Positions 17,021-56,121 of a stretch of 64,000 nt of DNA are shown piece by piece. The notes under the pieces are model-generated. The model worked only from the letters and a program-made list of their open reading frames with translations. It ran no database searches and was not told the DNA's origin. Position 1 is the stretch's first letter. Each line of letters starts with the position of its first letter. This DNA is from Ascochyta rabiei (taxonomy: Eukaryota; Ascomycota; Dothideomycetes; Pleosporales; Didymellaceae). The stretch lies in assembly GCF_004011695.2 (NCBI RefSeq), contig NC_082405.1:2169001-2233000 (forward strand), written 5' to 3'. The position numbers were made by a program, and so were the translations under genes.

Positions 17021-17030
17021 GTGTGAGATG

Positions 17031-17083
17031 ATTCGACTCTGTGGGGGATAATTCGACTCTGTGGGGGATAATTCAACTCTGTG
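17031..17083. repeat. 20-bp tandem repeat just after the paraoxonase stop codon
   Basis: The unit ATTCGACTCTGTGGGGGATA occurs at 17031-17050 and 17051-17070, followed by a partial third unit at 17071-17083 in which CG has become CA, a RIP-type change. Confidence 0.9.
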
Positions 17084-17403
17084 TAAAAGAAAAATCTCTA
17101 AACCAGCTCCTCTCCCACATCACAGAATAGCCAGAGCGGTGAAGATGCAGCAGCGAAGCATTTCCCACTTTTCCCACCCCAATTCCGACTGTTTGAAAAC
17201 ATGTCAAGTCCTCTACATATCTACCGAGCAACACAACATCTTTCATGTAGGCTGAGTGGCTCATGGAATTCGACGGAGCGCTGTATCCGAGTCTTCATAA
17301 CATAAGAGGCTTGTGTGTCAGAAGGCGCATGTATAATAAACTACTCTTTTTGAAAAGATGGTGGTATTATTTATCTTATTAATTTAACATGATAGGTTTT
17401 GCT

Positions 17404-17536
17404 TCTTATTTAGATTCTCTGAGTTCTATGCAAGACTAGTCTGTTTGTGAAAGTGTCTATGCTTAGTAGTAATAACTAGCTACTATCTTGCTGACTATAA
17501 ACGTCTGCTGCTTAAGCATAATTAACCTCTCTCTAA
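17404..17536 (-). repeat. RIP-mutated partial duplicate of the 3' coding end of VAC1
   Basis: This segment aligns base for base with 17703-17835 inside the last exon of the adjacent VAC1 gene, in the same orientation. Example: TGCTTGGTGGCATCGGCCAC in the gene corresponds to TGCTTAGTAGTAATAACTAG here. Nearly all differences are G-to-A or C-to-T, which creates stops. The match ends abruptly near 17536, about 80 bases before the VAC1 stop codon. Confidence 0.85.
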
Positions 17537-17618
17537 GAACGCGTGGGCAGAATGATTCGTTATTCTTCTAAGAAGGTGATCGTATAATCTCTATTATAGA
17601 TTACACTTGCAGCACCTC

Positions 17619-19758
17619 TCACCTTAGCGCAGGACTATTCTCATCCCTCTGATACGCGCTCGCAAAGTCCAGCTGTGCCAACTGCCCAGTAATGTGATCA
17701 ATCTCCTGATTGAGATCGTCCAAGTTCTGTGCGAGAGTGGTGTGCTCGTCAAAGCGTCTGTGCTTGGTGGCATCGGCCACCATCTCGCTGACCATGAATT
17801 TCTGCTCCTCGAGCACAATCAGCCTCTCTCTGAGCTCTTTCTCTTCTGTTTCCATGGCGGATACCTCGCTGCTGCCGACGACGCTACCGCCAGATTTGTC
17901 GCTGGCCTTGATGGCTGCTAGGGCACCGCCTCCAGTGGGTCGGCCTTGGGGCGCGGCGTGTTTGAGAATTTTCGGTAGTGAGCGGAGCGGGAGCATGTGG
18001 AGACTTAGGAAGCTGTAGGCTTGCTGGTAGACGGCTTGTTGGAGCCGCTTCTGTGTAGGTGATTCGGTTGGTAGGTCGCGTATTCTTTTGGCAGCTGCGT
18101 CGAATTGTGCGAAGGCGTCCATGAGGCGTTTGCGCACTTTTGTAGCATCTGTGAGTTGTTGAGGCGTGGGTGGTCTTTCAGGATCCTGCAAGGCTGTCAA
18201 CAGCTTCTGAAACCGTGGTAACAGCAGTCGAATGCCTCTTTCAAACTGTGCCAGGTTCTCGTACGCCCGCTGGTCCTTTGGCCGTTGGGCCATTTCACGC
18301 TCAAAGTCGCTCCTGCTGAACAAGGTGTGGTTGCAATCCTTGCACATGCGCACGTCGACACTCATTTGGTCGGTGATTTTCTCTGACCTGTTCGGGTTGA
18401 CATTCAGACCGATCTCTGTCGAGCAGGCGGTGTTTGGATCGCCGCAGACCACTCGTCCACACATACGGCAGTGGTGTCTCCGAAACGTGTAGGTGGAGAA
18501 CTCCTGCTGACAGAATGGGCAGTGTGAGACTTTTGCGTCTTCCTCCCAAGTGATGATGGACTGCTCCAGTGCCTTGCGCTGGTTCTTGGCCGTGGAGATG
18601 CCAACCGTCGACAGTCCGAACCAGCGTCCAGCAGTGGGTGTGCCCTCGGCCGGCGGCGGGTCGGCGAGTAGTTGTGTCAGCTTGGTGAGGCGCTTTTCCA
18701 GCCGGCTGACCTCCATGTGCTCTCGGTCTAGCCTCTTCCTTCGAATCTTGGCAAACTCGTCAAAGTGGTTGCGCTCCAGTCCATGGTGGTCGTTGTACCC
18801 TTCTCTCGACTTGTAACACGTCTCACACACACGGCACCAGATACCGCGTACGGGTTCATGTTTGGCTGCTCGTGACAGCTTCATCTGGTAGAGGGTATGG
18901 TCTTCACAGAACAATTGCCCGCATTGCCTGCAGTTGACGGCGGACTGGCTGTTCCCCAAGGCCACGCCAGAGGCTGTGATGGGGCGTCGGCAGAGGGGGT
19001 CTGAGCACACGTCTCGATAGCCAGGTCTCTGCCAGTGCGCTCTTGTGACTTCTTCCTCCGGATCTCTGCGGATGATGGGCGCGGGTGGGGTGTCGTGGGC
19101 GGTGCGGGTGTGCGAGGCAGGCGGCGGCGTAGGGGCGCTGTTGGATTCGAAGACGTCGAGGCCCTTGAGCTTCTGGTTCAGGACGGCGAGGGGCTGGAAC
19201 TTCTTGGCCTTGACCATCTGCTCCTCGAACCAGTTCTTGACCTCATCCTGCTCTTCCTCGACGAGGTTCTGGTGGTTGTCGTCGAGATGGCTGGCGACAT
19301 GTCAGCGCTGTGTGCAGGCAAGGGTCGGGCGTGGAGAGGGCAGCACCGGTTGAGCTGGAGGAGCGTGACCTGCCGTCATCAGTTCACTGCACACGGTATG
19401 GGCAACGGCGATGGCGTACCATGTGCTCATTGCATATGGGACACGCCAGACGACTGCTGGCACGAGCGGCGGCATGCTCACTGGGGCCCAGCAGGACCTT
19501 GCTGCCAATGTCCTCTCCCGTCTCGGCGATGCTGGCGGGGCTGACGGACGTCTGGCTGCTCAGCGACACGGAGCTCTCCGAGGGCGACAGCAGGCTCACG
19601 TTGCGGACATGGCCGTGCTGTGGCTGCGGTGCTTGCAGCGTGTGCGGGGGCGCGGGGGCGGGCGAGGCGGCGGGCGAGGCGGCGGGCGACACGGCGGACG
19701 ACAGGTTCCTCCCGCTCCCCAGCACACGGCCGCCGCCCAGGGACCTGCGGGAGGCCAT
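17619..19758 (-). CDS. VAC1: Vac1/Pep7 endosomal tethering protein (FYVE, C2H2, Rab-binding), 677 aa
   Basis: Exons, in transcription order, are 19758-19420, 19369-19347 (a 23-nt microexon) and 19290-17619; all junctions are GT-AG and keep frame. The family binds PI3P and the Vps21/Rab5 GTPase and works with Vps45 and Pep12 in Golgi-to-endosome traffic. A C2H2 finger uses Cys106, Cys109, His122 and His127 and is spread over all three exons. A FYVE-like cysteine cluster lies at about residues 216-280, and a canonical FYVE domain at 378-440 with RRHHCR at 391-396. The C-terminal 150 residues are coiled, ending in a Rbsn-type helix (DDLNQEIDHITGQLAQL). The N-terminus has an Ala-Ser-Pro repeat. 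Part of its 3' end is duplicated just downstream. Confidence 0.93.
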
Positions 19759-20211
19759 GGTCGAGGGCAGAAGGGGACTCGCAGAGTATCTAGAAGAGGT
19801 GCAGCGCGACGTGGGTCGCGCGGTCCGAGTTGCGAGGTACGGGGGTGCGCTAGGCGTGGGCGTGGCGCAAGGATTCCTGTGCATGGGCATGGGCATGGGC
19901 GTGGGCATGAATGAGCATGTGCATGTCCATGTCCATGTGCATCGCGCATGGCGGGCAACGCTGTACGCCGGACGCCTGACGCCTGACGCCTGACAATGGA
20001 CGACGGACGCCTGACAATGGACGACGGACGCCTGACAATGGGCAATGGACAATCGACATCGACAATCGACAATCGACCATGGACGACGCCAAGGCTCTGG
20101 CCTTGCTTGCTGGACGTCGCCGGTGGCCCGGTGCACTATCGATAGCGCTGCCGTCCACGCCTCGCTGCGATCGAACGAAATGCGCCGCCTCCCCACTACC
20201 CATCTCCCACC
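19759..20211. promoter_or_regulatory. Divergent VAC1/MET8 promoter region packed with short tandem repeats
   Basis: The 453 bases between the two start codons contain a GGGCAT run (about 19883-19912), a CATGTC/CATGTG run (19915-19942), copies of GACGCCTGAC (about 19970-19994), an 18-bp ACGACGGACGCCTGACAATG-like unit (19995-20040) and GACAATCGAC repeats (20048-20080). The repeats are GC-balanced and not RIPed. Confidence 0.7.
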
Positions 20212-21064
20212 ATGGCGCATGAGCAAGATTTCCCGGAGATCCAGGGCGGCGGCTCCCTCATTCTCGCCTGGCAGATCCGCAACAAGCGTGTGCTCGTCGT
20301 CGGCGGCGGCGAGGTGAGTGTGGCCGCTATGCGCACGCGATAGCAATTGACCGTTGACGCCAGCACAGGTCGCCGCTGGCCGCATCGTGAACGTTCTCAA
20401 CGCCGACGCCAACATCACCGTCGTTTCCCCGCGCGAAGGCCTCAATCCAGAGGTCGCCTACCGAATCGAGCAGAAGCAAGTCGACTATGTCGACCGCAAG
20501 TTCGAGCCCTCCGACCTCGAGGGCGTCGACATGGTCATGACCGCCGTCGACGACCCGGAGGCCTCGTCGCAGATCTGGAAGCTGTGCAAGGAGAAGAGGA
20601 TAGCAGCCAACATTGCCGATGTGCCGCCAGAGTGCGACTTTTACTTTGGCAGTGTGCACCGCGACGGGCCCCTCCAGATCATGGTCAGCACAAACGGCAA
20701 GGGCCCAAAGCTGGCAAACATCGTGAGGCGCCAAATCGCTGCCAACCTGCCGCCCAACATTGGCATGGCCATCACAAGAGTAGGCATGCTGCGCAAGAAG
20801 CTGAGGCAGGTCGCGCCCGACATCTCAGAGGGGCCGAAGCGGATGCAGTGGTATGTGCCATCGTCGCATTCTCGTGCAGCCATGCTAACACAGTGCAGGA
20901 TGATCAAAGTATGCGAGGCGTACTCTCTTGACGATCTCTGCTCTATGACCGAGAGAGACATGGAGCAGCTCCTTGGCTTCTACAAGCCCAACGCGGCACC
21001 CAGCCTTGATCTGCTTCGTCTGCAGGAGCCAGATGGTGCATTCGATGGGCCTTTCCTCATCTAA
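20212..21064 (+). CDS. MET8: Met8: precorrin-2 dehydrogenase / sirohydrochlorin ferrochelatase, 249 aa
   Basis: Exons are 20212-20313, 20369-20850 and 20899-21064. Met8 oxidises precorrin-2 with NAD and inserts iron to give siroheme, the cofactor of sulfite and nitrite reductases. A Rossmann start (RVLVVGGGEVAAGRI) lies at residues 26-40. ADVPPECDFYFGSV and ISTNGKGPKLA-type segments (here VSTNGKGPKLANIVRRQI) match the siroheme synthase central domain. The length is close to the yeast 274-residue enzyme, and no methyltransferase domain is fused. The second intron is 48 nt and in frame, so an unspliced reading would not be stopped; I removed it because it has a good donor (GTATGT) and breaks the conserved sequence. 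Confidence 0.92.
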
Positions 21065-21329
21065 GCTGAACATGGGCGGCGTTCTAGACAGGCATATAGA
21101 CGGACTGGGTAAGCGGGCGTTGTCACGCATATCTACTCCTTCAACACACTATCAGGCTTTCTCCACTCCAGTCGTCGTCTGCATTCATGACCTCACGGCA
21201 TTCGAGCCAATCAACGTTGGGTGGCCCATGCGTCGATCCCTCATGATTCCTCCGTCTCTGACATCCAATCCCGCAACACCACTACATCTCAGCACCGCCC
21301 TTGCGCTGGCTCCACTCCAGTCTTGGACC

Positions 21330-22631
21330 ATGGATCTGGCTCAACGCCCACCTTACAGCACTATCGACTTTAAAACACTTGCCAAAGCCGATCCAGACTT
21401 CAAGCAAACATGGCAAGCGTGTTCCGGCAAACTCGACTTTCAAGACCCAGCCACCCTCCAATCTTTGTCTAAAGCAATCCTCCACGTTGACTTTGATCTT
21501 GAACTTGCTCTGCCAGACAATCGACTCTGTCCTCCAATACCCAACCGCTGGAATTACGTGTCTTGGATACATGGCCTGCTCGACTCTACATCATCGTCTC
21601 ACTCCAACAGATATGACCCGGACAGAGACGTCGTCGGTCTGGATATCGGTACTGGCGCATCGGGCATCTACGCCATGCTGTGCATGAAGAGCAGACCCAA
21701 GTGGACCATGTGCGCGACGGATGTCGACAAAGTATCGTTCGAATCGGCAGCTGCAAATTTTGCTCGTAACAACCTGCTAAGCCGCACGAAGATGCTGCAC
21801 ACCACTTCTTCAATGCCTCTGATACCACTCGAAGCACTATGCCTACAGCAACTGGACTTCACGCTCTGCAATCCCCCCTTCTTCACCGACTCTGTCGAGA
21901 TGGAAAAGAGCCTCAGCGGCGAAGGAAAAGCTACGGGACCCAATGCGATCTGCACAGGCTCCAACAATGAAATGGTCTGTCCTGGCGGCGATCTCGGTTT
22001 TGTCACACGGATCATCAACGAATCACTAGCTCTACGTGACAAGGTGTCATGGTACAGTAGCATGCTCGGCAAGCTCTCCAGCGCCAAAGCCGTTGTCGAG
22101 CTGCTCAAAACTAACGCCGTAACGAATTGGGCTGTGGGTGTTCTGGATCCAGGCACGAAAGCGGGAACGAAGAGGTGGGTGGTTGCATGGAGTTTTGGTG
22201 ACATGAGACCACGGAACAGTATCGCTCGCCCGCCCGGTGGTAGCTTTCCGCACGATCTGCTGCCTTTCCCAACTTCATATAACATATCGCTGCCTTCTAC
22301 CTTCACCGGCTCTGCCGCGTTCGCCAAACTGAATGATCAGTTATCCACCCTGGACTTGGTTTGGAAATGGAACGCGGCGACATCGAGTGGTGTCGGCGAA
22401 GCATCAGAAAATGTCTGGGGGAGAGCGTACAGACGAGCCTACGAGCGGCGGAAGAGGGAAGGTCAAGTGGAAATGCGCGGTGGTACACACGACAAGAGGA
22501 CTCAATTAGCTTTTCGCATCACAGTCGTAGATCTGGCCGGCGAGATCGTGCTGGAATGGCTCAAGGGAGATGATCAGGTACTGTGGGAGAGCTTCTGTGG
22601 GTGTGTGCATCGGTGGTTCAAAAAGACATAG
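21330..22631 (+). CDS. METTL16-type RNA N6-adenosine methyltransferase (DUF890), 433 aa
   Basis: The start is ATG 21330 (MDLAQRPPYSTIDFKTLAK); the frame is open further upstream, but that part overlaps the MET8 end and has no family match. The sequence follows the METTL16 pattern: an N-terminal PDFKQTW region, DNRLCPPIPNRWNYVSWI, an SAM-binding GLDIGTGASGIYAML and the catalytic CNPPFF (about residues 185-190). Homologues methylate an adenosine in U6 snRNA near the 5' splice-site-pairing motif, so a nuclear role in splicing is likely. There is no vertebrate C-terminal conserved region. Single exon. The start lies 265 bases after MET8. Confidence 0.9.
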   Translation: MDLAQRPPYSTIDFKTLAKADPDFKQTWQACSGKLDFQDPATLQSLSKAILHVDFDLELALPDNRLCPPIPNRWNYVSWIHGLLDSTSSSHSNRYDPDRDVVGLDIGTGASGIYAMLCMKSRPKWTMCATDVDKVSFESAAANFARNNLLSRTKMLHTTSSMPLIPLEALCLQQLDFTLCNPPFFTDSVEMEKSLSGEGKATGPNAICTGSNNEMVCPGGDLGFVTRIINESLALRDKVSWYSSMLGKLSSAKAVVELLKTNAVTNWAVGVLDPGTKAGTKRWVVAWSFGDMRPRNSIARPPGGSFPHDLLPFPTSYNISLPSTFTGSAAFAKLNDQLSTLDLVWKWNAATSSGVGEASENVWGRAYRRAYERRKREGQVEMRGGTHDKRTQLAFRITVVDLAGEIVLEWLKGDDQVLWESFCGCVHRWFKKT

Positions 22632-22869
22632 AACACTCCTGCCTGTTGGAGACGTTGTGCAAACGGAAGGAGCGGGAATCAAGTTTTGAAGCTCGCCTCC
22701 ACCACCTGTCTTCGCTCTCTCGCCTTCACTCGTCGCTTGGTCATTTCTACCACTCACGTCAAATGACGTTTCTCACAGTTCCTCATCAACACGTCACAAA
22801 CACAATTCACTTTCCCACTCTCTCCCTTCTGACGCTTCACAACACACGTCCCTTTGCAGGCACATCACC

Positions 22870-23415
22870 ATGTCTTCTCCCTCCAACAGCGCAGTCTACT
22901 TCACCTCGTCGACAGAGCTCGCCGACCTCGGCGCGGCCCGCTTCGACCACGACACCGCGGCCATCGGCGACAAAGATTACGCGCTCAACTCCTACGCGCC
23001 AGTCACAGTGCAGTCTGGCCGGGCGCCCAAAGGTCTCGAGGACCAGGTCTTCGCGTGGAACACCTTCCAGTACACGACGAGTGAGAAGAACGAGAAGGAG
23101 GAGAAGAAGGGCGATCTGCATGAGGGACAACTGCACCGGCAGAACAGAGCTGCCGCTGGGGTTCAGCCGACTACGCTGGCGTCTGAGAATCGCCCGGCGT
23201 CTTACGGTGGTGGGAGGGGAGCTCAGGCTAGACGGGGAGGCCGCGGTGGTCGAGGTGATCGAGGAGGCAAAGGTGGTGGGGGCGTTGGTAGAAGTGATGG
23301 AAAGCCAGATGCATTGTGCGCGGGAAGGAAGCCGGAGGGTAAAGCACCACCGCTGGCAAAGGGATTTGCGGAGGAGTTAGATAAGAGCTTGTTTTGGGAA
23401 GGGCCCATCGTCTGA
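22870..23415 (+). CDS. Hypothetical protein with an RGG-box region, 181 aa
   Basis: ATG 22870 has a good CACC context. Residues 1-70 look like a small folded part (FTSSTELADLGAARFDHDTAAIGDKDYALNSYAPV), followed by a charged Glu/Lys stretch. An Arg-Gly-rich segment at about residues 112-145 (GGRGGRGDRGGKGGGG) is typical of RNA-binding or methylated RGG boxes, and a short tail ends DKSLFWEGPIV. No family recognised; a role with RNA is inferred from the RGG segment only. Single exon. Confidence 0.65.
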   Translation: MSSPSNSAVYFTSSTELADLGAARFDHDTAAIGDKDYALNSYAPVTVQSGRAPKGLEDQVFAWNTFQYTTSEKNEKEEKKGDLHEGQLHRQNRAAAGVQPTTLASENRPASYGGGRGAQARRGGRGGRGDRGGKGGGGVGRSDGKPDALCAGRKPEGKAPPLAKGFAEELDKSLFWEGPIV

Positions 23416-23686
23416 GAGTGATACGCCTCTTGTTCAGACATGCAAATTTATAAGCAACACTCACAGTGTCACTGCTAAGCTGAGTGGTATCGGGCTGGTA
23501 ATCACCGCACTCAATATTCTGACAACAGTAACTAATATCCCAGACAGGACCGCCATCACGTCAACGTCAAAGTATTGTCATGTCACAACAGTCACTTGGC
23601 TGTGACGTGGCCCTATGAAGAATTTAGTACCTGCGCTTTTGGTGATACGGGATCGCAGCGACATCTCTTGGTGTCGGTACTGAGTG

Positions 23687-25325: not shown

Positions 25326-27267
25326 ATGGCAGAACCTACGGCACCAGCACCGGCAACGGGCGAGGAGGAAAAGGGCCCCTCTAAGCGTGCGCTCGAAAAA
25401 GCCGCAAAGAAGGCTGCCGCGAAAGCAAAGAAAGCCGAACATGCCCTGCGCCCCAAGGAGCAGGCGAAGCCCGCGGCAAAAGCTGAGCCGGTCAGCATGT
25501 TCGCCGAGGGCTGGCTGAAGCGCATATACGAGGAGAAGCCCGTCAAGGACGTCTACACACGATTCCCGCCTGAGCCTAACGGCTACCTGCACATCGGTCA
25601 CTGCAAGGCCATTGCTGTTAACTTTGGCTTCGCGAAACATCACAAGGGCGTGTGCTACCTGCGCTACGACGACACGAACCCGGAGAAGGAGGAGGAGAAG
25701 TACTTTACGAGCATTCTTGACATTATCAAGTGGCTGGGTTTCGAGCCGTGGAAGGTCACGTACAGCAGCGACAACTTCGACAAGTTGTACGAGCTGGCGG
25801 AGGAGCTGATTAGGAAGGATGGCGCGTATGTGTGCCACTGCTCAAGTCTGTTCCCGCGTCGTTCTTTCACTGGGGGGTGGTTGCTGACAGCACACAGGAG
25901 AGGAGGTCAACATGCAGCGCGGCGGCCCCGACAACCGCGGCAAGCGCTACGCCTGCGAGCACCGCACACGACCGATCGACGAGTCCATCACCGAGTTCCG
26001 TGCGATGCGCGACGGCAAGTACAAGGCTGGCGAGGCGTACCTGCGCATGAAGCAGAGCCTGACAGACCCCAACGAGGGCAACCCGCAGATGTGGGATCTG
26101 CCCGCCTACCGAGTCGTCGAGAAGAACCACCACCACAGGACGGGCGACCGGTGGAAGATCTACCCCACGTACGACTTTACCCACTGCATTTGCGATGCGC
26201 TCGAGGGCATCTCGCATTCGCTGTGCACGGTTGAGTTCCGCCAGTCGCGCATCTCGTACGACTGGTTGCTGGAGAAGCTGGAGATGAAGGTGCCCAAGTC
26301 GGAGGAGAAGGGGCCGATGCAGAGGGAATACGGTCGTCTGAGCGTCAACGGAACGATTCTGTCGAAGCGCCGCATTCTCATGTTGGTTGAGGGCGCGAAG
26401 GTCGGCGACAGGACCATCCCGCCGTCGGTACGAGGCTGGGACGACCCGCGTTTGTACACCATGGTTGCGCTCCGCCGTCGTGGTATTCCCGCCAAGGCTA
26501 TGCTCCACTTTGTCGAAGAGCTGGGTGTGACGGACTCTTTTACCGACATCGAAGCCCCACGCTTCGAAGCTTCTATCCGCAAGCACCTGGAGCGCACTGT
26601 TCCCCGCCAGATGCTGGTGCTTGAGCCTATCAAGGTCGTCATCGAAGACTTTGCTGCCGAAGACGACCAGGAAGTGACGGTGCCGTACGACCCCAAGGGA
26701 GGCATTCCCGGCGAGCGCAAGGTCAAGGTCGGCGGCTCCATCTACATTGACCGCAGCGACTTCCGCGAAGAAGACGACCCAGACTACTTCCGCCTCGCGC
26801 CCAACAAGACGGTGGGGCTGTACAACGTGCCGTTTTCGATCCGCGCCACATCCTTCTCCAAGGACGCAAGTGGCAAGGTCACAGAGATCAAAGCCGTCAA
26901 GGTCCCCGCGAGCGAGCGGCCAAAGGCATACATCCAGTGGGTGGACGCGGCAACAGGCATCCAAGTGACGGCACGGCAGTACAACAGCCTCTTCAAGACC
27001 GAGTCGCCCAACACGCTGAACTGGAAGGACGGCAGCTGGGCCGACGATCTGCGAACCGACTCGGAGGTCATCTACGCGGACGCGGTGATTGAGCGCGGGC
27101 TGAACAATCTGATCGCGGAGAACGAACTCAACCCCGGCGGCTCGTCGGACGCGCTCGTCCGCTTCCAGGCGCTGCGCACGGCCTACTTTTGCGTCGATCT
27201 CGAGAGCACGCCCGAGCGCATCGTGCTGAATCAGATTGTGTCGCTGCGCGAGGATAAGGGCAAATAG
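25326..27267 (+). CDS. GLN4: Glutaminyl-tRNA synthetase, 629 aa
   Basis: Exons are 25326-25845 and 25898-27267, joined across a 52-nt intron (donor GTCTGT, weaker than usual). The enzyme charges tRNA-Gln with glutamine in the cytosol. The class I signature HIGH is at residues 89-92 ([12 protein letters not shown]) and the KMSKS equivalent is SKRR at 329-332. The N-terminal 55 residues are Ala/Lys-rich, a probable RNA-binding tail, in place of the longer N-terminal domain of yeast Gln4. The C-terminal half has the two-barrel anticodon-binding region ([19 protein letters not shown]). The 3' flank carries degenerate ~22-bp tandem repeats starting about 12 bases after the stop. Confidence 0.95.
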
Positions 27268-27278
27268 GCACGATTGTC

Positions 27279-27375
27279 GATAGTTTGCTGGTGCATATCA
27301 TGATACTTTGCTGGTGCATATGATGATATTTACTCATGCATGACAATACTTTACTCGTGCATGACGATACTTTAC
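27279..27375. repeat. Degenerate ~22-bp tandem repeat after the GlnRS stop
   Basis: About four to five units of the form GATACTTTGCTGGTGCATAT follow one another. The later units change TGCTGG to TACTCA or TACTCG, consistent with RIP-like decay. Confidence 0.75.
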
Positions 27376-27748
27376 TAGAGAACATGACAACAAGTACTTT
27401 ACTCCAGCGCACGTGTTAGTGTAATAGATATAAAGTCTAGTGCTTAGTAGTGTTATAGTAGAGGCAAAGAATAGCTTTGGTAATCCATAGGCTGCTGAGC
27501 ACTTGCTCAAATAGTGTACTCTTGTAGAGCTGCTAAAGTACTTCTAGTCAAAAAGGATGCTGGCTGGTGCCTGGTCTTCGTGAAGGTTCCAAGACGGACG
27601 ATGCACGGGCCAAGCGGGATCGGAGCAACAACCCTGCATGGCGGGCGGCGAAGACATATGGCGCATGTCTTCAAAAGTTCAAGTTCAGGCCCAGCTTGAG
27701 GACACGACACGACACGACACACACGACCTGGCCGTCACCACCACCACC
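27376..27748. promoter_or_regulatory. Region upstream of SPF1, TA-rich in its first half
   Basis: Bases 27400-27540 are TA-rich with many TAGT motifs and look RIPed, but no source sequence was found in the window. Bases 27560-27748 are GC-balanced and likely hold the SPF1 promoter and leader; an ACGACACG repeat lies at 27700-27725. Confidence 0.45.
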
Positions 27749-43244: not shown

Positions 43245-44481
43245 ATGTTCGCTGCCAGGAACGCTTTCGCCCAGGCCCAGCGCCGCGCCTTCTCTGCGTC
43301 GGCCCGCCAGGTACGCCCACGCCCAGCCGCAGCTCCGAGGCGACTCAGCAGCTTTTTGCGAACACGTCGATGGCTCGATGGGTGCCATTGAGCGACTTGT
43401 GCTAACGCAGTCAATTGCAGTCCTCCAAGGTCACCGTCCTCGGTGCCGCCGGTGGCATCGGCCAGCCGCTCTCGCTCCTCCTCAAGCTCAACCCTCGCGT
43501 TAGCAAGCTCTCCCTGTACGACATCCGCCTCGCCCCCGGTAAGCTGGCCCATTGTTGATATACATCGATAACAAGGAACACACTGACACGCACAGGTGTC
43601 GCCGCCGACATTGGCCACATCAACACCAAGAGCGAGGTCACCGGCCACGCTGCCACGCCCTCCGGCCTGGCCGAGGCCCTCAAGGGCGCTGAGATCGTTG
43701 TCATCCCCGCTGGTGTCCCTCGCAAGCCCGGCATGACCCGTGACGACCTGTTCAACACCAACGCCTCCATCGTCCGCGACCTCGCCAAGGCTGCCGCCGA
43801 GCACGCCCCCGAGGCCAACATCCTCATCATCTCCAACCCGGTGCGCACGGCGAATCCCTGCTTGTTTGACCTGCATGCTGACTTGCCCAGGTCAACTCCA
43901 CCGTCCCCATCACCGCCGAGGTCTTCAAGGCCAAGGGCGTCTACAACCCCAAGCGCCTCTTCGGTGTCACCACCCTTGATGTCGTCCGTGCCTCGCGCTT
44001 CATCTCGCAGCTGAAGAACAACGACCCCGCCAGCGAGAACATCACCGTCGTCGGTGGCCACTCGGGCGCGACCATTGTCCCCCTCCTGTCGCAGTCGGGC
44101 TACAACCTGTCTGGCGAGCAGCTCGACAGCTACGTCAAGCGCGTGCAGTTTGGCGGAGACGAGGTTGTCCAGGCCAAGGAGGGCGCTGGATCCGCCACGC
44201 TGTCCATGGCCATGGCCGGTGCCCGCTTCACCGAGTCGCTGCTCAAGGCCGCGCAGGGCCAGAAGAACGTCATCGAGCCCACGTTTGTCGACTCTCCCCT
44301 GTACAAGGACCAGGGCGTCGAGTACTTTGCGTCCAACGTCGAGCTCGGCCCCAACGGTGTCGAGAAGATCCACCCGGTCGGCAAGATCACCGAGTACGAG
44401 CAGAAGCTGCTCGACGCCTGCTTGGCCGACCTCAAGGGCAACATCACCAAGGGTGTCAAGTTCGCCAAGGAGAACCCGTGA
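43245..44481 (+). CDS. MDH1: Malate dehydrogenase, mitochondrial, 339 aa
   Basis: Exons are 43245-43310, 43421-43538, 43596-43840 and 43891-44481; all junctions keep frame. The enzyme interconverts malate and oxaloacetate with NAD in the TCA cycle. The first exon encodes a matrix-targeting presequence rich in Arg, Ala and Ser ([22 protein letters not shown]) that ends at the exon boundary. The NAD loop GAAGGIG is at residues 30-36. Substrate-binding [17 protein letters not shown] and the catalytic His in [16 protein letters not shown] are present. There is no peroxisomal C-terminal signal, which supports the mitochondrial form. A 29-bp tandem repeat lies 50 bases after the stop. Confidence 0.95.
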
Positions 44482-44530
44482 ATGTGATATAGTATGATGT
44501 ATGACAGGGGAAGGAGAGGGTTGTACATTA

Positions 44531-44588
44531 GTAATGAAAGATTATACTCCACTGGAACTGTAATGAAAGGTTGTGCATCACCGGAACT
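44531..44588. repeat. 29-bp tandem duplication after the MDH stop
   Basis: Two units, 44531-44559 and 44560-44588, both start GTAATGAAAG and end GGAACT, and differ at a few positions, mostly transitions. Confidence 0.85.
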
Positions 44589-44861
44589 GCAACTAGACTA
44601 ACGGCTGCTGGAATTGTTATGTGCCTGGTGTTATCAGCGATGCAACTAGAGCGAGCCTTGTTTCGAATCCGAATCTGTACCTTGTCTCTCTTTTACACGC
44701 AAAGACACGCTCTATATTAAATCTTACTTGGTTTTGTTATTATTTTTATCTTCAAACTTCAACTCTCTTCCTATTACATAAGTCGTCTAACTAATAGATA
44801 TATACAGTGTGAGTTCCAGTACCTCTCTGTAAGAACACTGCACCTATCTAGGCGCTGTAGC
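44589..44861. other. TA-rich convergent gap between MDH and CDS1, left part
   Basis: Increasingly T/A-rich sequence leading into a large tandem duplication; no gene recognised. Confidence 0.45.
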
Positions 44862-45350
44862 TAAGGTAGGGCTTTAAGCTAAAGCCTTGCATATTCACAC
44901 ACTTTATACATTTATCTTACTAAAGTTTTTTAAATTATCTTGCTAAGGTTTTTAGAATTGTTCTTCTTCTCTAACTTAGATACTTTTATTATTGTGTAAG
45001 CTACTTATATCAAGGGTATTATGTACGATGCACTTGGAAAAGGAGAGGGAATTCCTGTACACTTTCTCTCTGGCTAAATAAGAAAAAAAAGAGATGTGCT
45101 ACGCTACATACAAGCACTAAATTAGGTAAGGCTTTAAGCTAAAGCCTTACATATTCACATACTTTATGTGTTTATCTTACTAAGTTTTTTGTATTGTTCT
45201 TCTTCTCTAACTTAGATACTTTCATTATTGTGTAAGCTACTTACATCAAGGGTATTATGTACAATGCACTTGGAAAAGGAGAGGGAATCCCTGTACACTT
45301 TCTCTCTAGCTAAACAAGACTGAAAAGAGACGTGCCGCACACAGGCACTA
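44862..45350. repeat. Two-unit, ~260-bp tandem direct repeat, TA-rich, between MDH and CDS1
   Basis: Unit 1 (about 44862-45118) and unit 2 (about 45122-45350) share GCTTTAAGCTAAAGCCTT at 44871 and 45131, TCTAACTTAGATACTTT, and CACTTGGAAAAGGAGAGGGA. Unit 2 lacks about 29 bases. The differences seen are mostly transitions. The source is not identified; it is not the CDS1 or MDH coding end, but it could be old 3' flank. Confidence 0.88.
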
Positions 45351-45419
45351 CACCGAGTGCTGTGGTGCAGTACAGGAACGTGGAGTGTGGAAAGTGGAAT
45401 CTAGCAAGTAGCGCGCCGT

Positions 45420-47028
45420 CTATCGCCTAGCGACCTGTGCGGAGAGGTATTCGAGGATCTGGGGGTTCTTCGTCAGTCACCAAAAAACACGAGGGATTGA
45501 TGCAAGTCGTGTCAGACTCACCTGCGGCGGAATGGTGCCATGGTTGACGAGATTCTTGCTCAGGATCTTGACCACCTCAAACTGCTCTTCGTGCGTGAGG
45601 CCCGTGATGGCGGCCTCGATGACGCCGCCGACAGTGGTGTGGTGCGTGGCGACGAAGCTCGAGTAGTAGAAGAAGGCGATGGAGCCCATGATGAACTGGC
45701 AGTCAAAGCGGTCCGTCATGCCGCCGTGGCCGGGGATGGAGTCGCCAAAGTCTTTGATCTTGAAGGTGCGCTTGAGGCCCGAGGCGAAGAAGCCGCCAAA
45801 GGGCGCGATGAGCGAGGCGAAGGTGGCGAGAATGACCATGTGGAACTGCACGGGCATGATGTCAAAGGTGCGCGGGATGGGGAGGTAGGCGGGGATGACC
45901 TCGGGAATGAAAGGGAGGGTGTAGTTGCGCGAGAGGAAGACAGGGTTGGGCTTGCACTCGAGACCGGTCAGGACGTTTGCGCCGAGGTCGTTGACGGGGC
46001 AGATGAAGAACTTGTATTGGGCCAGGAAGTGAGTGGCGAGGACGCCCCAGATGATTGTGAAGAACCAGGCGCCGAGGAAGCCCTCCCACGTCTTCTTGGG
46101 CGAGATCTGGATCAGCTGGTGGCGGCCAAAGGTGATGCCGCAGAGGTAGGCGAAGATGTCGTTTGTGATGACCATGGAGATGGGCAGGATGAACCAGATG
46201 AAGCCCTCAAAGATGTTGTTGATGACAAAGTGAGCCTGGCCGACGATGAGGAAGAGAGCCATGTGGGTCCAGGCGAACTGGGTGAACTGGAACTTGTAGT
46301 GGCCTTTTTGCAGGGAGAAGACGAAGAAGACGAAGCCTGTAGGATTAGCATGTCGTAGAGTGAAGGACAGAGGGTGAGTGTGTAGGAGTGATGGACAGAG
46401 GGTGAGTGTGTAGGAGTGATGGACAAAGGGTGAATGTGTAGGCGTGATGGACAAGGGTTAGACGCACCGATAATGTACAGCATAAAGGAGATGAAGCGGT
46501 GGTGGGTGGCCAGGGGCAGCAGGATGCGGTCGACGAGCAGGACGTGCTTGAAGTAGTAGATGACGCTCTCGCCGTAGAGAAAGTACATTGCGGTGCCGAG
46601 GAAGTACCAGTTGAGCGACTTTGTGAAGCGCAGGCTGCGGGCCTTGCTGGGGACGTTTGCAATGGCGATGACCTCCTTGAAGCAGATGACCTGGACGGCG
46701 GTGATGATGACGATGATGTAGAGGTGGCCGGCGCCGAGGGCGAAGAAGAAGCCGCCGATCATGAGCAGCGTCCATGTGGTGCGGACGATGAAGTTTGCCT
46801 TTTTCTTCTCGTACTCGGACTGCTCGGGCTGGGATGGCTACAGCTGTCAGCGGGGGTGGGTGCCGTGGGCGAACGACGCACGGGAGGATGGGCAGCGCCG
46901 TTGCGCGAGGGGCTGCCGGGCTGTGAGCCCGTCTCGCTGATGTCGGACATGCTCATCGAGGCACGGCGCGCGCGCCCGTTGCTCGCGTTCCTGTGTGCGA
47001 ACTTGACGTCCTTGCGAGGACGCGCCAT
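45420..47028 (-). CDS. CDS1: Phosphatidate cytidylyltransferase (CDP-diacylglycerol synthase), 459 aa
   Basis: Exons, in transcription order, are 47028-46882, 46837-46468, 46336-45522 and 45467-45420; the last encodes only 15 residues (NPQILEYLSAQVARR). The enzyme makes CDP-diacylglycerol from phosphatidate and CTP in the ER, the precursor of phosphatidylinositol, phosphatidylserine and cardiolipin. It has about eight transmembrane helices. The signature SGLKRTFKIKDFGDSIPGHGGMTDRFD is present (shown here in short: KDFGDSIPGHGG and MTDRFDCQ), with the metal-binding Asp residues. SPKKTWEGFLGAW is also diagnostic. The N-terminus is polar and basic. Intron 2 is unusually long (131 nt) because it holds a minisatellite. 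Confidence 0.94.
46350..46455. repeat. 28-bp minisatellite inside CDS1 intron 2
   Basis: On the coding strand the unit is close to TCTGTCCATCACTCCTACAC followed by ACTCACCC. There are about 3.5 copies, with small differences. They fill most of a 131-nt intron, while the other introns of the gene are 44-54 nt. Confidence 0.88.
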
Positions 47029-49795: not shown

Positions 49796-50210
49796 TTTGT
49801 ATAAGCGCCTTGAATAAGATATACACGCCAAGCCACGAATGGTGCGGCTTCCTGACCTCACAGCTCCATTCACGTCAACTTCCAGCCCCATCCATCACGA
49901 CTACTTACCACACACTCACGTAACTGCTCGCTGCTTATTTAGATCCAGACGCCGACGTCGGAAGCGCTGGCAGATAAGACATTCGGCATGACAGAATACC
50001 AAGACCGCTTGCATGCAGCCAAGACTTCGAGGATGGGGCATCTTCACTCGACGTCAACACACTTTGGGAAGGTTGCTACACGAAGTGGGAGAGGTCGTGC
50101 ATTTTTTTGCATGGGTGCGGATAACGTTGTCCGGTTGTGATGCAGATCGTTAAGATATAAAAGGGTATGCGCGAGCGCTAAAGAGTGTCTGCGTTGCTAC
50201 GATCAGAACC
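49796..50210. promoter_or_regulatory. Intergenic region upstream of the M20 peptidase gene
   Basis: About 415 bases with a TATAAAA-like box at 50155-50162, about 50 bases before the ATG at 50211, a plausible core promoter. Nothing else recognised. Confidence 0.5.
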
Positions 50211-51596
50211 ATGGACCGCTACTTTATTGCGAAAATACCTGCGATGGCTCCGTCGGTACTGACTCTGGGCTTGCTTGCCTTGATCCTCAGCTACGGACCG
50301 CACACGGCGGCAGCCACAGGAATCAACCCTCTCGTCAGTCGCCAGAGCAATGGTACAGCGCTCAACCCGCACTTCACAGCCATATCAGACTACATCGACT
50401 CGATCACGGACGACCTCTCGTCCATCAACACGGAAATCCACTCCAACCCGGAGCTGGGGTATGAAGAAGTCAAGGCTCACGAGCTGCTGACCTCGTTCAT
50501 GGAAGAGCAGGAAGGGTGGAACGTCACTCGATCCGTCGGCAACATCTCGACCGCCTTCATGGCTGTGTTTGAGGGCAGCAGCGAGGGCCCAACAGTCGGC
50601 TTCAACGCAGAGTACGACGCCCTGCCCGAGCTCGGTCACGCATGCGGGCACAACCTCATCGCTACGGTATCCCTAGGAGCCGCTCTCGCGGCCGCAGACG
50701 TCATGCGAAAAGAAAGTCTCGCAGGCAGGATCATCCTCTTCGGCACGCCCGCAGAAGAGTCTCTGGGCGGCAAAGTCAAGATGCTGGAAGCCGGCATCTT
50801 CGACGACGCCAAGATGGACATCTCGCTCATCTCCCACCCGACGTCCAACGCCGACAGCCCCTACATGTTGACCACGTCCACGGACCGCGTAGACGTCGAG
50901 TACTACGGCCGCGAAGCGCACGCCGCCGCGGGGCCGTGGGAAGGCATCAACGCCCAAGACGGCCTGCTGGTCGCCAACAGCGCCCTCTCCTACATGCGGC
51001 AGCAAATGCGGCCCTCGGACCGCGTGCACGGCTTCATCTCCAGCGCCGGAAGCCGCATCAACGTCATCTCCTCCAAAGCGAGCGGCTCGTACCAGATCCG
51101 CGCCAACGACGAAACGCAGCTCGCGAACCTAACCGCGCGGGTCGAGAACTGCTTCCAAGCCGGCGCCCTCGCCACGGGCGCACAGCTCAACTTCACCGTC
51201 CGGCCGTACGGGTACGCTAACCACGTGTCCAACGACCTCCTCGCGGCCTCGTACGCGACCCACTTCACGTCCCTCGGCGGCGCGCTGCAACCCGCCGAAA
51301 TCGACAAGCTGAAGGACCCAAGCGGCTCGACCGACCAGGGCAACCTCTCGCACGAGTGGCCCAGTCTGTCGCCCTTCTTCCAGATCACGAACCAAGACGG
51401 CAGCGTGCCCGCCGGGGGACCGCACACGGCGGCGTTTGAGGTCGCTGCTGGGTCGCAGCCGGCGTTTGAGAAGGCGGTGCAGGTCGCGAAGAGTTTGGCT
51501 GGCGTGGCGGTGGATGTGCTGACGGTGGAGGGGCTGCTGGGGGAGATTAAGAGCGAGTTTGAGAAGACTCAGACGAGTCCTAGGCGGCGGCGGTAA
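50211..51596 (+). CDS. M20 family peptidase/amidohydrolase (PM20D2-like), 461 aa, secreted
   Basis: This is a single-exon metallo-amidohydrolase. Residues 1-35 form a signal peptide (APSVLTLGLLALILSYGPHTAA). Metal and catalytic segments are ELGHACGHNLIATVSLG, GTPAEESLGGKVKM, ISHPTSNAD and GREAHAAAGPWEGINAQDG. The family hydrolyses amide bonds of acyl-amino acids, aminobenzoyl-glutamate or dipeptides; the substrate here is unknown. Several Asn-x-Ser/Thr sites fit secretion or vacuolar passage. It ends in a basic tail (TSPRRRR). The last 117 coding bases are the first unit of a 130-bp tandem array that continues for about 700 bases past the stop. Confidence 0.9.
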   Translation: MDRYFIAKIPAMAPSVLTLGLLALILSYGPHTAAATGINPLVSRQSNGTALNPHFTAISDYIDSITDDLSSINTEIHSNPELGYEEVKAHELLTSFMEEQEGWNVTRSVGNISTAFMAVFEGSSEGPTVGFNAEYDALPELGHACGHNLIATVSLGAALAAADVMRKESLAGRIILFGTPAEESLGGKVKMLEAGIFDDAKMDISLISHPTSNADSPYMLTTSTDRVDVEYYGREAHAAAGPWEGINAQDGLLVANSALSYMRQQMRPSDRVHGFISSAGSRINVISSKASGSYQIRANDETQLANLTARVENCFQAGALATGAQLNFTVRPYGYANHVSNDLLAASYATHFTSLGGALQPAEIDKLKDPSGSTDQGNLSHEWPSLSPFFQITNQDGSVPAGGPHTAAFEVAAGSQPAFEKAVQVAKSLAGVAVDVLTVEGLLGEIKSEFEKTQTSPRRRR

Positions 51597-52113
51597 AAGG
51601 ATGCATTTGCAGGTTGTAAAGAGTTTAGCTGGCGTTGTAGTAGATTTGCTAACAGTAGAGGGGCTGCTAGGGGAGATTAAGAGCGAGTTTGAGAAGACTC
51701 AGACGAGTCCTAGGCGGCGGCGGTAAAAGGATGCATTTGCAGGTTGTAAAGAGTTTAGCTGGCGTAGCAGTAGATGTGCTAACAGTAGAGGGGCTGCTGG
51801 GGGAGATTAAGAGCGAGTTTGAGAAGACTCAGACGAGTCCTAGGCGGCAACAGTAAAAGGATGCATTTGCAGGTTGTAAAGAGTTTAGCTGGCGTAGCAG
51901 TAGATGTGCTAACAGTAGAGGGGCTGCTGGGGGAGATTAAGAGCGAGTTTGAGAAGACTCAGACGAGTCCTAGGCGGCGACGGTAAAAGGATGCATTTGC
52001 AAGTTACTAAGCGTTTAGGTAGTATTATAGTAAGCTAACTGTAGAGAGACTGCTAGAGGAGGTTAAGAGTGAGTTTAAGAAGACAAAGATAAGTCTTAGG
52101 TGGTGATAGTAGG
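51480..52113 (+). repeat. 130-bp tandem array made from the 3' end of the M20 peptidase gene
   Basis: Unit 0 (51480-51609) is the gene's own coding end plus stop and 13 bases of flank. Copies start at 51610, 51740, 51870 and 52000, an exact 130-base period. The first half of each copy carries C-to-T and G-to-A changes (CAGGTCGCGAAGAG becomes CAGGTTGTAAAGAG). The second half (AAGAGCGAGTTTGAGAAGAC through TAGGCGG) is almost unchanged in the first three copies. The copy at 52000 is mutated throughout. Copies 51740 and 51870 share the same mutations and are nearly identical. Confidence 0.95.
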
Positions 52114-52184
52114 AGTAGTTAAAAAAACCAAATCTTATTGCAGAGTAAAAGGCGCCCTTTTCTACACCACGGTAGGTATAGCAA

Positions 52185-52300
52185 GGTAGTGCACGTTGAA
52201 GAGAGTCTTGGGAGTAGGCAGTATAGTAGATATGCTTACTATAGATGAACTATCGGAGAGAATCTAGAGTAAATTTAAAGAAAAGATAAATGAAGACGTA
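52185..52300 (+). repeat. Further, heavily decayed copy of the same M20 3'-end unit
   Basis: GTAGGCAGTATAGTAGATAT, CTTACTATAGATGAACTATC and AGAGTAAATTTAAAGAAAAG align in order with the gene's GGCGTGGCGGTGGATGTGCT..., CTGACGGTGGAGGGGCTGCT and AGAGCGAGTTTGAGAAGACT. Most differences are RIP-type transitions. Confidence 0.7.
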
Positions 52301-52911
52301 TAGAAGCAGTACTGTACACTCTTTCACTGCAGAAGATGCCATGTAGATGTTGTTCGTACTCTCGTAAAGAAACTCGCTTGAAGATGAAAACAAGCGGGAT
52401 GCACTAGGAGAGAGCCAGCGCTGAGAGGTGTCGGTGCGCCAGAGGCCAGACTCGGGCACGTTGTCAGGCCTCGGCACTGGAGGTCGCCCCACAGTCCGTG
52501 CGGCGCGTTTGTGGGGAGCGGGGAGCACGTGCAGAGAGGTGCGAGTCGAGACGGGCAGAAGACTGGGGTGAGAGTCGGTGTATGTGTGCGGGTCTGGAGA
52601 TGGATGTGCCCGCAGAGCCGCGCGATGGGCGCCGACGCTGTTGATTTCACGTGAAAGCGGACGCACCGGGCTAGCGGGGGCAGCTCCGACGGGCGACGGG
52701 CGACGGGCGTGGACGGCGTGGACGGCCAGCGTCACGCGGCGGCCGATGTGCCTCGGCAGCAGCCACGTCTTGTCCCTCGGGGGTGACGCGTAGCCGAGCA
52801 GAAGTTGGACCGCACCGCCATCGCCCTGCCCTGCCCTGCCCTGCCCTGCCCTGCCCGCCCTGCCCTGCCTGCCCTGCCCTCCTCTCTCCTTGCCACTCCA
52901 TCGCCCTTGTA
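52301..52911. promoter_or_regulatory. Region upstream of the carnitine acetyltransferase gene
   Basis: About 600 GC-rich bases that should hold the promoter. It includes a CCCTG pentanucleotide microsatellite just before the ATG (separate entry) and a short GGGCGAC repeat at 52690-52708. Confidence 0.5.
52823..52880. repeat. CCCTG pentanucleotide microsatellite in the CAT leader
   Basis: About nine near-perfect CCCTG units lie 32-90 bases before the CAT start codon; on the transcript this is a pyrimidine-rich leader. Confidence 0.9.
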
Positions 52912-55030
52912 ATGTTCAGCAGAGTTGCGCGAGCGCGAGCACCCGCCTCGATCCTTCGCCGCCCCGTCACGCAGACCCCGACCCCGACGCCCAGGGTGCG
53001 TATGGCCGCAAGGCGCTGGCGGCGTGGAGGCTGACCGCATGCAGAGATTCGCAATGGCGCCCGCCAGGAAGCAGTCGTCGCTGCCCGAGGGTGCGTCCTG
53101 GCTGAGCTCACACAACCAAGGCGGCCGCTGACCAGACAGGCTACAAGGAGGACCACAGCAAAGGCGCCATGCTGCGCTTCGAGGACTCGCTCCCCCGGCT
53201 GCCCGTGCCGACGCTCGCGGAGACGGCCAGGCGGTACCTCAAGTCGGTGCACCCGCTGCTGTCCGCGGCCGAGTTCGAGCAGACAACCCGGGCCGTCAAC
53301 GACTTCGTCGCGCCCGGCGGGCCCGGCGAGACGCTGCAGCAGCGCCTGGAGGAGCGGCGCGCGCGGCCCGAGATCAAGAACTGGCTCGCCGAGTGGTGGA
53401 ACGAGGCGGCGTACATGGGCTACCGCGACCCCGTCGTGCCCTACGTCAGCTACTTCTACTCGCACCGCGACGACAAGAAGCGCCGGGACCCGGCCAAGCG
53501 CGCGGCCGCCCTCTCCACCGCCGTGCTCGAGTTCAAGAGGCTCGTCGACGGCGGCCAGCTGGAGCCCGAGTACATGAAGAAGCTGCCCATGGCCATGAGC
53601 TCGTACGAGTGGATGTTCAACTGCAGCCGCGTGCCCAAGAAGCCCGCCGACACGAGCGTCAAGTTCCCCTTCGCCCAGAACCAGCACATCGTCGCCGTGC
53701 GCAAGAACCAGTTCTGGAAGATCCCCCACGAGATCGGCGGCAAGCAGCTCAACACCAGCGAGCTCGAGCTGCAGTTCAGGCGCGTCTACGACAGCGCCGT
53801 CAAGACCGACGCCGTCGGCATCCTCACCTCGCAGAACCGCGACGTCTGGGCCGACGTCTACCCCAAGCTCAAGGCCGCCTCCCCCGTCAACGCGGCGGCC
53901 ATCGAGGCCATCGAGGCGGCCTCGTTCGTCGTCTGCCTCGACGACGCCTCCCCCGTCACCCTCGAGGAGCGCGCCCACCAGTACTGGCACGGCGACGGCG
54001 CCAACCGCTGGTTCGACAAGCCGCTGCAGTTCATCGTCAACGACAATGGCACCTCGGGCTTCATGGGCGAGCACTCCATCATGGACGGCACGCCCACGCA
54101 CCGCCTCAACGACCACGCCAACAAGCTCATCTTCACAAACGCCCTGCCCTTTGACGACCCCTCCATCCGCTCCGACCTGCCCAACCCCAAGCCGCTCCGC
54201 TTCGAGCTCAACGCCGAGCTCAAGAGCGACATCGCCGCCGCCGCCGCCCACTTCACGAGCCAGATCGGCGCCCACGAGCTGCGCGTGCAGGCCTACCAGG
54301 GCTACGGCAAGGGCCTGATCAAGAAGTTCAAGTGCAGCCCGGACGCCTACGTGCAGATGATCATCCAGCTGGCCTACTACAAGTTCTACGGCAAGAGCCG
54401 CCCCACGTACGAATCCGCCGCGACCCGCCGCTTCCAGGAAGGCCGCACCGAAACCTGCCGCACAGTCTCCGACGAGAGCGTCGCCTTCTGCGAGGCCATG
54501 ACGAGCCCAGACACCACACCCGAGGAGTGCGCCGCCAAACTGCGCGCCGCCCTCGCCGCGCACGTGGCCTACATCAGCGACGCCTCCGACGGGCGGGGTG
54601 TCGACCGCCACCTCTTCGGCCTGAAGAAGTGCCTCAAGGAGGGCGAACCCGTGCCAGCGCTGTACTCGGACCCGGCGTACAGCTACAGCTCCACCTGGTT
54701 CATCTCCTCGTCGCAGCTGTCGTCCGAGTACTTCAACGGCTACGGATGGAGCCAAGTCGTCGACGACGGCTGGGGTCTCGCCTACATGATCAACGAGAAC
54801 AGCATCCAGTTCAACGTCTGCTCCAAGGGTCTTGGATCGGTGAGTTCACTCCTTCTCCCCTCGACATTCTTCCCCTGCGGGGTGTCGGAAGTGCAGGTGG
54901 CAAGTGCAAGTGGACCAAGTTGCTAACGTGCATCGCGCAGGACAAGATGAGCTTCTACCTCAACGAAGCAGCGGGCGACATCCGCGACGTCATGCTCCCC
55001 TCGCTCGAGGCGCCCAAGGCCAAGTTGTGA
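52912..55030 (+). CDS. CAT2: Carnitine O-acetyltransferase, mitochondrial and peroxisomal, 639 aa
   Basis: Exons are 52912-52995, 53045-53090, 53140-54839 and 54941-55030. The enzyme transfers acetyl groups between CoA and carnitine to move acetyl units between peroxisome, cytosol and mitochondrion. The first exon encodes an Arg-rich presequence (MFSRVARARAPASILRR), and the last ends in AKL, a peroxisomal PTS1 signal. An internal Met codon in exon 2 (53054) could start a short peroxisomal form, as known for yeast Cat2 and Aspergillus AcuJ. The catalytic His355 lies in GEHSIMDGTP, and GYKEDHSKGAMLRFEDSLPR begins the domain. The final exon has a RIPed duplicate just downstream. Confidence 0.95.
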
Positions 55031-55198
55031 TTCCGCTCTGCATTACTCACATCATACACGTAGAGAATAGTATAGTAGGCAGCACTAAAAAGCTTGCTAC
55101 AAAGACGTGTGCAGGATATGCAGGCGCAGAGATACAGACTAGTAGCTACCCAGCTACTAGAAGATACGTGTAGGCTTTATAGAATATAGAGTAATAGT

Positions 55199-55424
55199 AC
55201 TACAAACAATGACACATAATAAACTTCCCACATTAACAAAGTAGTAGCTAACATCTATACTATTACCCTCCTCTTACTTCTAAGGCACCTAAGGCTAAGT
55301 TATAATATAGCTCTATATTACACACAGAGGATTATATAGTAAGTAGCACAAAATAGCTTACTATAGACTTATAGAGACGTATGTAGGATGTATAGAGGTA
55401 GAAAGAGATATACATACTAGTAAG
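55199..55424 (+). repeat. RIP-mutated duplicate of the last exon and 3' flank of the carnitine acetyltransferase gene
   Basis: The segment aligns with about 54941-55150. The gene's AAGGCCAAGTTGTGA (55016) becomes AAGGCTAAGTTATAA (55291), and the exon start GACAAGATGAGCTTC matches GACACATAATAAACTTC. The flank AGCTTGCTAC (55091) matches AGCTTACTAT (55355). Differences are nearly all transitions, with a few indels. It is in the same orientation as the gene, about 265-275 bases downstream. Confidence 0.82.
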
Positions 55425-56121
55425 TTAATTCTTATCTTTAGGCTAGAACTACTCCCTAACCCTACGTTTAGCATCCCTACTAACTGCCTTACTGCTTACT
55501 TTGTAGTTATATAGTATAGTAATGCAGCGCTTGTTACTATACTTAGTAACATAGGTAATAAGCTATCTATATATGCTATATTATAGCCTAGGCCTATATT
55601 ATATATCTTATTAGAGTTAGCTAGCTATAAATTCTAGATTTGTAGAAAATATATTCCTTAATCCTTGTCTTTAAGCTGGTAACGCTCCCTGACCCTACGT
55701 TCAGCGCCCTTGCTGACTGCCTTGCTGCTTACTTTGTAGTTATATAGTATAGAAATGCAGCACTTATTACTATACTTAATAAGATAGGTAATAAGCTATC
55801 TATATATACTGTACTTTAGCCTAACCTATATTACATATCTTATTAAAGTTAGCTAGCTATAAATTCTAGATTTGTAGAAAATATATTCCTTAATCCTCGT
55901 CTTTAAGCTGGTAACGCTCCCTGACCCTACGTTCAGCGCCCTTGCTGACTGCCTTGCTGCTTACTTTGTAGTTATATAGTATAGAAATGCAGCACTTATT
56001 ACTATACTTAATAAGATAGGTAATAAGCTATCTATATATACTGTACTTTAGCCTAACCTATATTACATATCTTATTAAAGTTAGCTAGCTATAAATTCTA
56101 GATTTGTAGAAAATATATTCC
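55425..56121 (-). repeat. Three ~232-bp RIP-mutated copies of the PPR gene 3' end
   Basis: The copies carry the equivalent of the PPR stop codon at about 55425, 55658 and 55890 (the real one is at 56122). Each contains about 200 bases derived from the coding end plus about 30 bases of flank. In the gene CGCTCGCTTTGTAGTCGCGC; in the copies TGCTTACTTTGTAGTTATAT. The copies at 55658 and 55890 are almost identical, including their RIP changes. Bases next to the stop (CTGACCCTACGTTCAGCGCC) are untouched in those two but mutated in the outermost copy. Confidence 0.93.

Follow-up and report, generated by a model that had tools for sequence, protein, structure and literature searches.

Gene ends and their downstream copies

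The DNA analysed here, referred to as the window, is a stretch of 64,000 nucleotides from the chickpea-blight fungus Ascochyta rabiei (C1:2169001-2233000), whose genome comprises 40.9 Mb on 23 contigs. Four of its genes, namely a VAC1-like gene, an M20 peptidase gene, a carnitine acetyltransferase (CAT) gene and a PPR gene, are accompanied downstream by direct-orientation copies of their own 3' parts, and the copies have decayed in the manner of RIP. The features are listed below by window position. Copies were placed with a RIP-aware alignment, and each score is given against the maximum of shuffled controls (300 in the case of PPR).

17027..17083, plus strand: 20-bp tandem, 2.8 copies (TRF), 7 nt past a stop ending at 17020
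17402..17537, minus strand: direct copy of VAC1 CDS 17703-17834, RIPed and lying 82 nt beyond the stop; score 79.7, shuffled maximum 18.9
17619..19301, minus strand: VAC1-like gene, last-exon ORF with FYVE and Rabenosyn Rab-binding domains; stop 17619-17621
27279..27376, plus strand: 23-bp and 21-bp tandems (TRF), 12 nt past the stop (ending at 27267) of a class I (Glu/Gln) tRNA synthetase gene
44531..44589, plus strand: 29-bp tandem, 2 copies (TRF), 50 nt past the MDH stop (ending at 44481)
44864..45340, no strand assigned: two-unit AT-rich direct repeat in the MDH-CDS1 interval (scan and alignment)
50211..51596, plus strand: M20 peptidase gene, 461 aa, PF01546, end intact; stop 51594-51596
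51608..51997, plus strand: three near-identical 130-bp M20 end copies (CDS 51478-51596 plus 11 nt), first ~50 nt RIPed and the rest near the gene
51998..52115, plus strand: older, more decayed M20 end copy; score 65.7 for 51998-52111, shuffled maximum 17.7
52183..52291, plus strand: oldest recognisable M20 end copy; score 32.3, shuffled maximum 18.3
53106..55030, plus strand: CAT gene, Pfam match on 53106-54842, last exon 54941-55030; TGA 55028-55030
55214..55423, plus strand: RIPed copy of the CAT last exon and 3' flank, a single copy of 54942-55145; score 79.9, shuffled maximum 19.3
55425..55590, minus strand: oldest PPR end copy, RIPed throughout
55593..56089, minus strand: two younger copies of the PPR end with a 232-bp period, 99% alike; RIPed in the upstream part, gene-like in the last 65 nt of CDS
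56122..58026, minus strand: PPR gene, one intron, end intact, 100% to Ascochyta rabiei EKO05_0000672; stop 56122-56124

Gene models were home-made (47, 55 and 58 coding segments), and their stops are more certain than their 5' ends. A transition-tolerant window scan (offset 30-3000, threshold 90) returned 23 direct segments against 0 inverted ones, and these sort into the VAC1, MDH-CDS1, M20, CAT and PPR arrays together with short tandems. The gene-end copies described in the initial annotation are thus real, both the scan and the shuffled-control alignments recovering them at all four genes, and the genes themselves are intact as had been stated, the C-termini of PPR and M20 resembling those of their relatives. 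The description of every copy as one of the gene's own coding end holds for PPR and M20 but needs amending for the other two genes: in the single VAC1 copy the final ~80 nt of the CDS are missing, and that of CAT takes in about 115 nt of 3' flank. The CAT copy opens (55214) exactly where the last exon begins (54941), and neither the intron nor the previous exon is recognisable before it, possibly by chance.

PPR has three copies, of which the younger ones hold CDS 56122-56323. The gene-adjacent copy (56089-55890) scores 133.3 against a shuffled maximum of 19.3 (300 shuffles) and the oldest 115.2 against 17.8; even the stretch 56040-56089, seemingly PPR 3' flank, is decayed CDS (24.7 versus 16.4). 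Most of the interval between CAT and PPR, from 55214 to 56089, is therefore gene-end copy.

The fifth array that had been reported, between MDH and CDS1, also exists, but tracing it to either neighbour failed. Its transitions run both ways (6 versus 8), and among 20 comparisons with MDH, the MDH 3' flank and CDS1 a single one, to the MDH 3' flank, exceeded 100 shuffles (14.3 versus 13.9), which we do not take as proof of origin. Short tandems do follow three further stops, as claimed. A further 28-bp tandem of 3.6 copies (46358-46458) lies between CDS1 coding segments and is probably intronic.

A whole-genome DNA search with the M20, CAT plus PPR and MDH-CDS1 stretches (the VAC1 copy was left out) found no second genomic place for any of them, and an origin from a dispersed repeat or transposon was rejected for these stretches, which match the genome only at their own place. 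At the start of the window (83-3726) there is a RIP-like, AT-rich DNA transposon with 31-nt terminal inverted repeats and 33 matches genome-wide; at 8 loci just its two ends adjoin (query 24-367 and 3471-3667, or nearly so), forming MITE-like deletion derivatives of ~545 bp.

Decay of the copies and mosaic arrays

Sequence contexts were counted in one old copy for each of the four genes, scoring C-to-T on either strand. C-to-T or G-to-A changes are present at 160 of 376 C/G sites, as against 25 opposite transitions at 318 A/T sites. By context, change affects CpA at 52/82, CpG at 80/109, CpC at 15/69 and CpT at 13/116 sites, that is, 132/191 for CpA and CpG together versus 28/185 for CpC and CpT. 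The 13 noncoding arrays sampled outside the window have far more even contexts (CA 69/251, CC 28/93, CG 39/90, CT 42/211), with 178 transitions and 63 transversions, so that the CpA/CpG bias belongs to the gene-end copies. The C-to-T and G-to-A decay that had been noted is therefore RIP-like, with the CpA/CpG bias present in all four genes: it is one-directional and prefers CpA, as RIP does, and CpG is also high. Divergence from the gene rises with the distance of the copy. Because an unmutated template adjoins the copies, one can follow at single-base level which way the changes went, in which context they fell and in what order events took place.

DNA-methylase domains occur at three loci in the genome. 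One matches a solved DNA (cytosine-5-)-methyltransferase (E 2.6e-42) and another has just a weak match (E 0.0016). For the methylase gene L002 (C1:757443) the named relatives are mostly Pleosporales proteins, and its homologues carry no RIP-related name.

The younger PPR units are chimeras with a sharp switch between two histories. In the gene-adjacent copy 43 of 50 CpA and CpG sites are changed in the part corresponding to 56188-56288 and 0 of 14 in that corresponding to 56122-56186 (CDS sites; 0/16 when the 3' flank is included), whereas the oldest copy is changed in both parts (42/50 and 10/14). The stretch 56188-56288 has 71 C/G sites; the oldest and the adjacent copy share a change at 42 of them, and at 3 just one of the two is changed. 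The two young copies have 52 differences from the gene in common while differing from each other at 3 positions. This mosaic, in which the young units are RIPed upstream with a gene-like end and the oldest is RIPed throughout, indicates that RIP came first and that unequal exchange then re-amplified the array. Read most simply, a copy that was old and RIPed over its whole length recombined with the end of the intact gene, after which the chimera was duplicated. The reverse relation, with the copies feeding the gene as C-terminal cassette donors, is not favoured, since at 56144 and 56146 the gene agrees with the oldest copy or its RIPed form and not with the younger copies; the PPR residue encoded there is conserved in relatives.

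The M20 mosaic looks similar, running in the same direction as that of PPR, and is weaker. Changed sites upstream versus downstream number 10/20 versus 1/14 (p 0.011), 10/20 versus 2/14 (p 0.066) and 10/20 versus 0/14 (p 0.0017) in the three young copies. Nine differences from the gene are common to all three, every one C>T or G>A at CpA or CpG. Another seven positions are not common to all three, and five of these are plain RIP type or include it at CpA/CpG, a hint of later, lighter mutation.

Gene ends inside and outside the window

The initial annotation had ascribed the copies to a process acting at transcript 3' ends. For comparison, 270 kb outside the window was sampled, consisting of 200 kb on contigs 2 and 3 (1.0-1.1 Mb on each) and 70 kb flanking the window. 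Predicted CDS ends were aligned with their own downstream 1.5 kb, and CDS starts with their own upstream DNA, using shuffled flanks as the control. In the window 3 of 20 ends exceeded the control maximum (PPR, M20 and VAC1, CAT being missed as its short last exon was not predicted), along with 0 of 23 starts. In the 270 kb outside, a clear copy was found at 0 of 87 3' ends (one was marginal, 18.8 versus a control maximum of 18.6) and at 0 of 102 5' ends (one scored 21.8 versus 19.2), so that this sample does not hold the strong 3' excess over 5' ends that a general process predicts. When coding tiles were compared with noncoding DNA within 3 kb, 5 of 1254 scored above 24, all of them from VAC1, M20 or PPR, with CAT again missed and the inverted control at 0.

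Minisatellites are likewise evenly placed outside the window: noncoding TRF arrays lie within 200 nt of 5/91 3' ends and 4/102 5' ends (p 0.74), within 100 nt of 2/91 and 3/102, and within 400 nt of 7/91 and 6/102. Inside it, the corresponding figures at 200 nt are 5/20 and 1/23 (p 0.08), in a window picked for the pattern, and the presence of copies at 4 of its 20 ends (Fisher p 0.0009) is similarly a post hoc figure from a selected window. A gapped alignment whose query included 100 nt of 3' flank placed 8 of 114 3' ends above 40 versus 1 of 130 5' ends, with a control contaminated by neighbouring flanks (maximum 419.5); the later test used shuffled flanks. Of these eight, four come from the DNA sampled outside the window: one is a pentamer array, two are minisatellites in the 3' flank, and one reads as an intronic array.

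An asymmetric-decay scan found one-sided arrays outside the window at a coding repeat (C2 3094), a pentamer array (C2 29867) and a 49-bp minisatellite (C2 97165). The last of these (L016, C2:1097165-1097467) is a tandem array in the 3' flank, 42 nt past a predicted stop; it was one-sided in the scan at 2 versus 9, and its differences are nearly all transitions (25 versus 1), with no CpA/CpG preference.

The asymmetric-decay scan, gapped CDS-end alignment, TRF and coding tiles thus gave a general 3'-end process no support outside the window. Nor is convergent transcription a common factor, since CAT, the next gene after M20, is transcribed in the same direction. The cases cluster locally, and the window that holds them was chosen after the fact; 0 clear cases in 87 are compatible with a genome-wide rate of a few per cent. 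The interpretation first put forward is, overall, partly supported.

Origin of the copies and relation to known systems

The copies, their one-directional and contextual decay, the PPR mosaic and the mutations common to the younger copies are probably the outcome of ordinary tandem duplication followed by RIP, selection that kept the gene, and unequal exchange. A short local tandem duplication (about 130-300 bp) with its downstream breakpoint past the stop would have let the gene survive, since the gene stays whole when a duplication starts within the CDS and runs beyond its stop. The same is true of a 5'-end duplication, and the 4-to-0 split between 3' and 5' copies is suggestive only. RIP acts in the sexual cycle before meiosis and is usually described as striking both duplication partners; in a sexual ancestor it would have mutated the duplicated DNA at CpA and CpG, and lineages with mutated gene copies would have been removed by selection, leaving intact genes beside RIPed copies. 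Unequal exchange between an intact gene end and an old RIPed copy could then have produced the chimeric units, RIPed upstream with a gene-like end, which would later have been re-amplified. What we infer is that slippage or unequal exchange gave rise to the copies, that selection acted on the gene and that the process depended on sex.

Several points weigh against this explanation. The gene copies bear no trace of RIP, for which selection is the sole explanation offered, and the clustering within 40 kb is not explained by simple tandem duplication. The M20 mosaic is weak in copy 3, and RID was not identified among the three methylase loci. In Neurospora, RIP can be triggered by 155 bp of close homology and is substantial at 220 bp (PMC4858203); by that measure the PPR and CAT units are within the length range, while M20 (about 120 bp) and VAC1 (132 bp) lie at or below the limit, although their units could have been longer at first. 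A published survey of repeats in A. rabiei reports C-to-T changes and orthologues of RIP genes, with CpT to TpT frequent and CpA to TpA fewer (PMC4835772), a CpT-rich pattern that is at odds with the 13/116 CpT sites changed in the copies.

In Australia most reports give MAT1-2 alone and no mating (PMC7341154); for an isolate from there, should this be one, any recent amplification would be expected to have escaped fresh RIP.

A process tied to the 3' ends of transcripts, in which slippage or re-replication at sites where transcription stops or converges repeatedly duplicates gene ends and RIP then marks the copies, appears unlikely. It would account for all four gene-derived local copies in 334 kb lying downstream of the gene and none upstream, for the repeated rounds at M20 and PPR, for the short tandems 7-50 nt past three further stops and for the 8/114 versus 1/130 ends above 40, though four of those eight are minisatellite-type or intronic arrays outside the window. 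Against it are the 0 clear cases among 87 outside 3' ends, the 5/91 versus 4/102 minisatellites, the selection of the window for its pattern, and M20, which is not convergent with its neighbour. That RIP is not involved, and that ordinary cytosine deamination and AT-biased drift eroded the copies, seems quite improbable. The copies do lie in noncoding DNA, CpG is the most-hit context (80/109) and the outside noncoding arrays are likewise transition-rich (178 versus 63), but CpA is also hit (52/82) while CpC and CpT are barely so (28/185), the outside arrays have far more even contexts, and heavily changed and unchanged stretches adjoin inside one unit.

Tandem arrays are prone to assembly error or collapsed reads, yet such an artefact is very improbable here: the copies are not stacks of identical units but a series of ages, set apart by many changes in specific contexts, and the arrays are shorter than 1 kb in what we take by inference to be the ArME14 assembly, which used PacBio reads from 17-kb libraries at 166x (PMC7341154). 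Equally remote is the insertion of reverse-transcribed mRNA ends downstream of the gene. The CAT copy agrees with it in opening at the last-exon start 54941 with no similarity to intron or previous exon before it, but the previous exon is absent where a spliced copy needs it (6.7 versus a shuffled mean of 8.4), the PPR and M20 units stop 11-32 nt past the stop codon and repeat head to tail, and no poly(A) tract was seen in the sequence read.

Beyond the tandem duplication, RIP and unequal exchange that we prefer, some chromosomal neighbourhoods might be hot spots in which gene 3' ends are duplicated past the stop again and again, undergo RIP, move outward and are renewed from the living gene, intergenic DNA such as 55214-56089 between CAT and PPR then being largely dead gene ends. 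We regard this as unlikely; if true, single genes would have beside them a record in which RIP and recombination are dated, and perhaps AT-rich terminators as well, and clustering, if genome-wide, would point to a duplication hot spot. The arrays are natural examples of RIP in which the coding duplications are very short (about 120-200 bp) and the template next to them is unmutated; RIP and unequal exchange would alternate here at single-copy genes, and the data suggest that RIP can reach core gene ends via small duplications. A literature search, with most subscription papers outside its reach, found no description of RIPed tandem copies of gene ends; what is partly new here is the mosaic detail of the arrays.

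Tandem arrays shaped by unequal exchange, as in satellite-type concerted evolution, have homogeneous inner units, a diverged outer unit and chimeric units. The present arrays share all three features, but differ in that one array end is a functional gene end under selection and in that RIP supplies the divergence. They resemble RIP in Neurospora crassa and other Pezizomycotina (PMC4858203) in having C-to-T changes on both strands of duplicated DNA, CpA as a target and close, short repeats, and unlike it in that just the copy is mutated, CpG is hit as strongly as CpA, and the targets are gene ends, not transposons. With the RIP of A. rabiei repeats they share the species and the C-to-T changes, whereas that survey concerned repeat families with CpT to TpT changes (PMC4835772) and the gene-end copies are changed chiefly at CpA and CpG.
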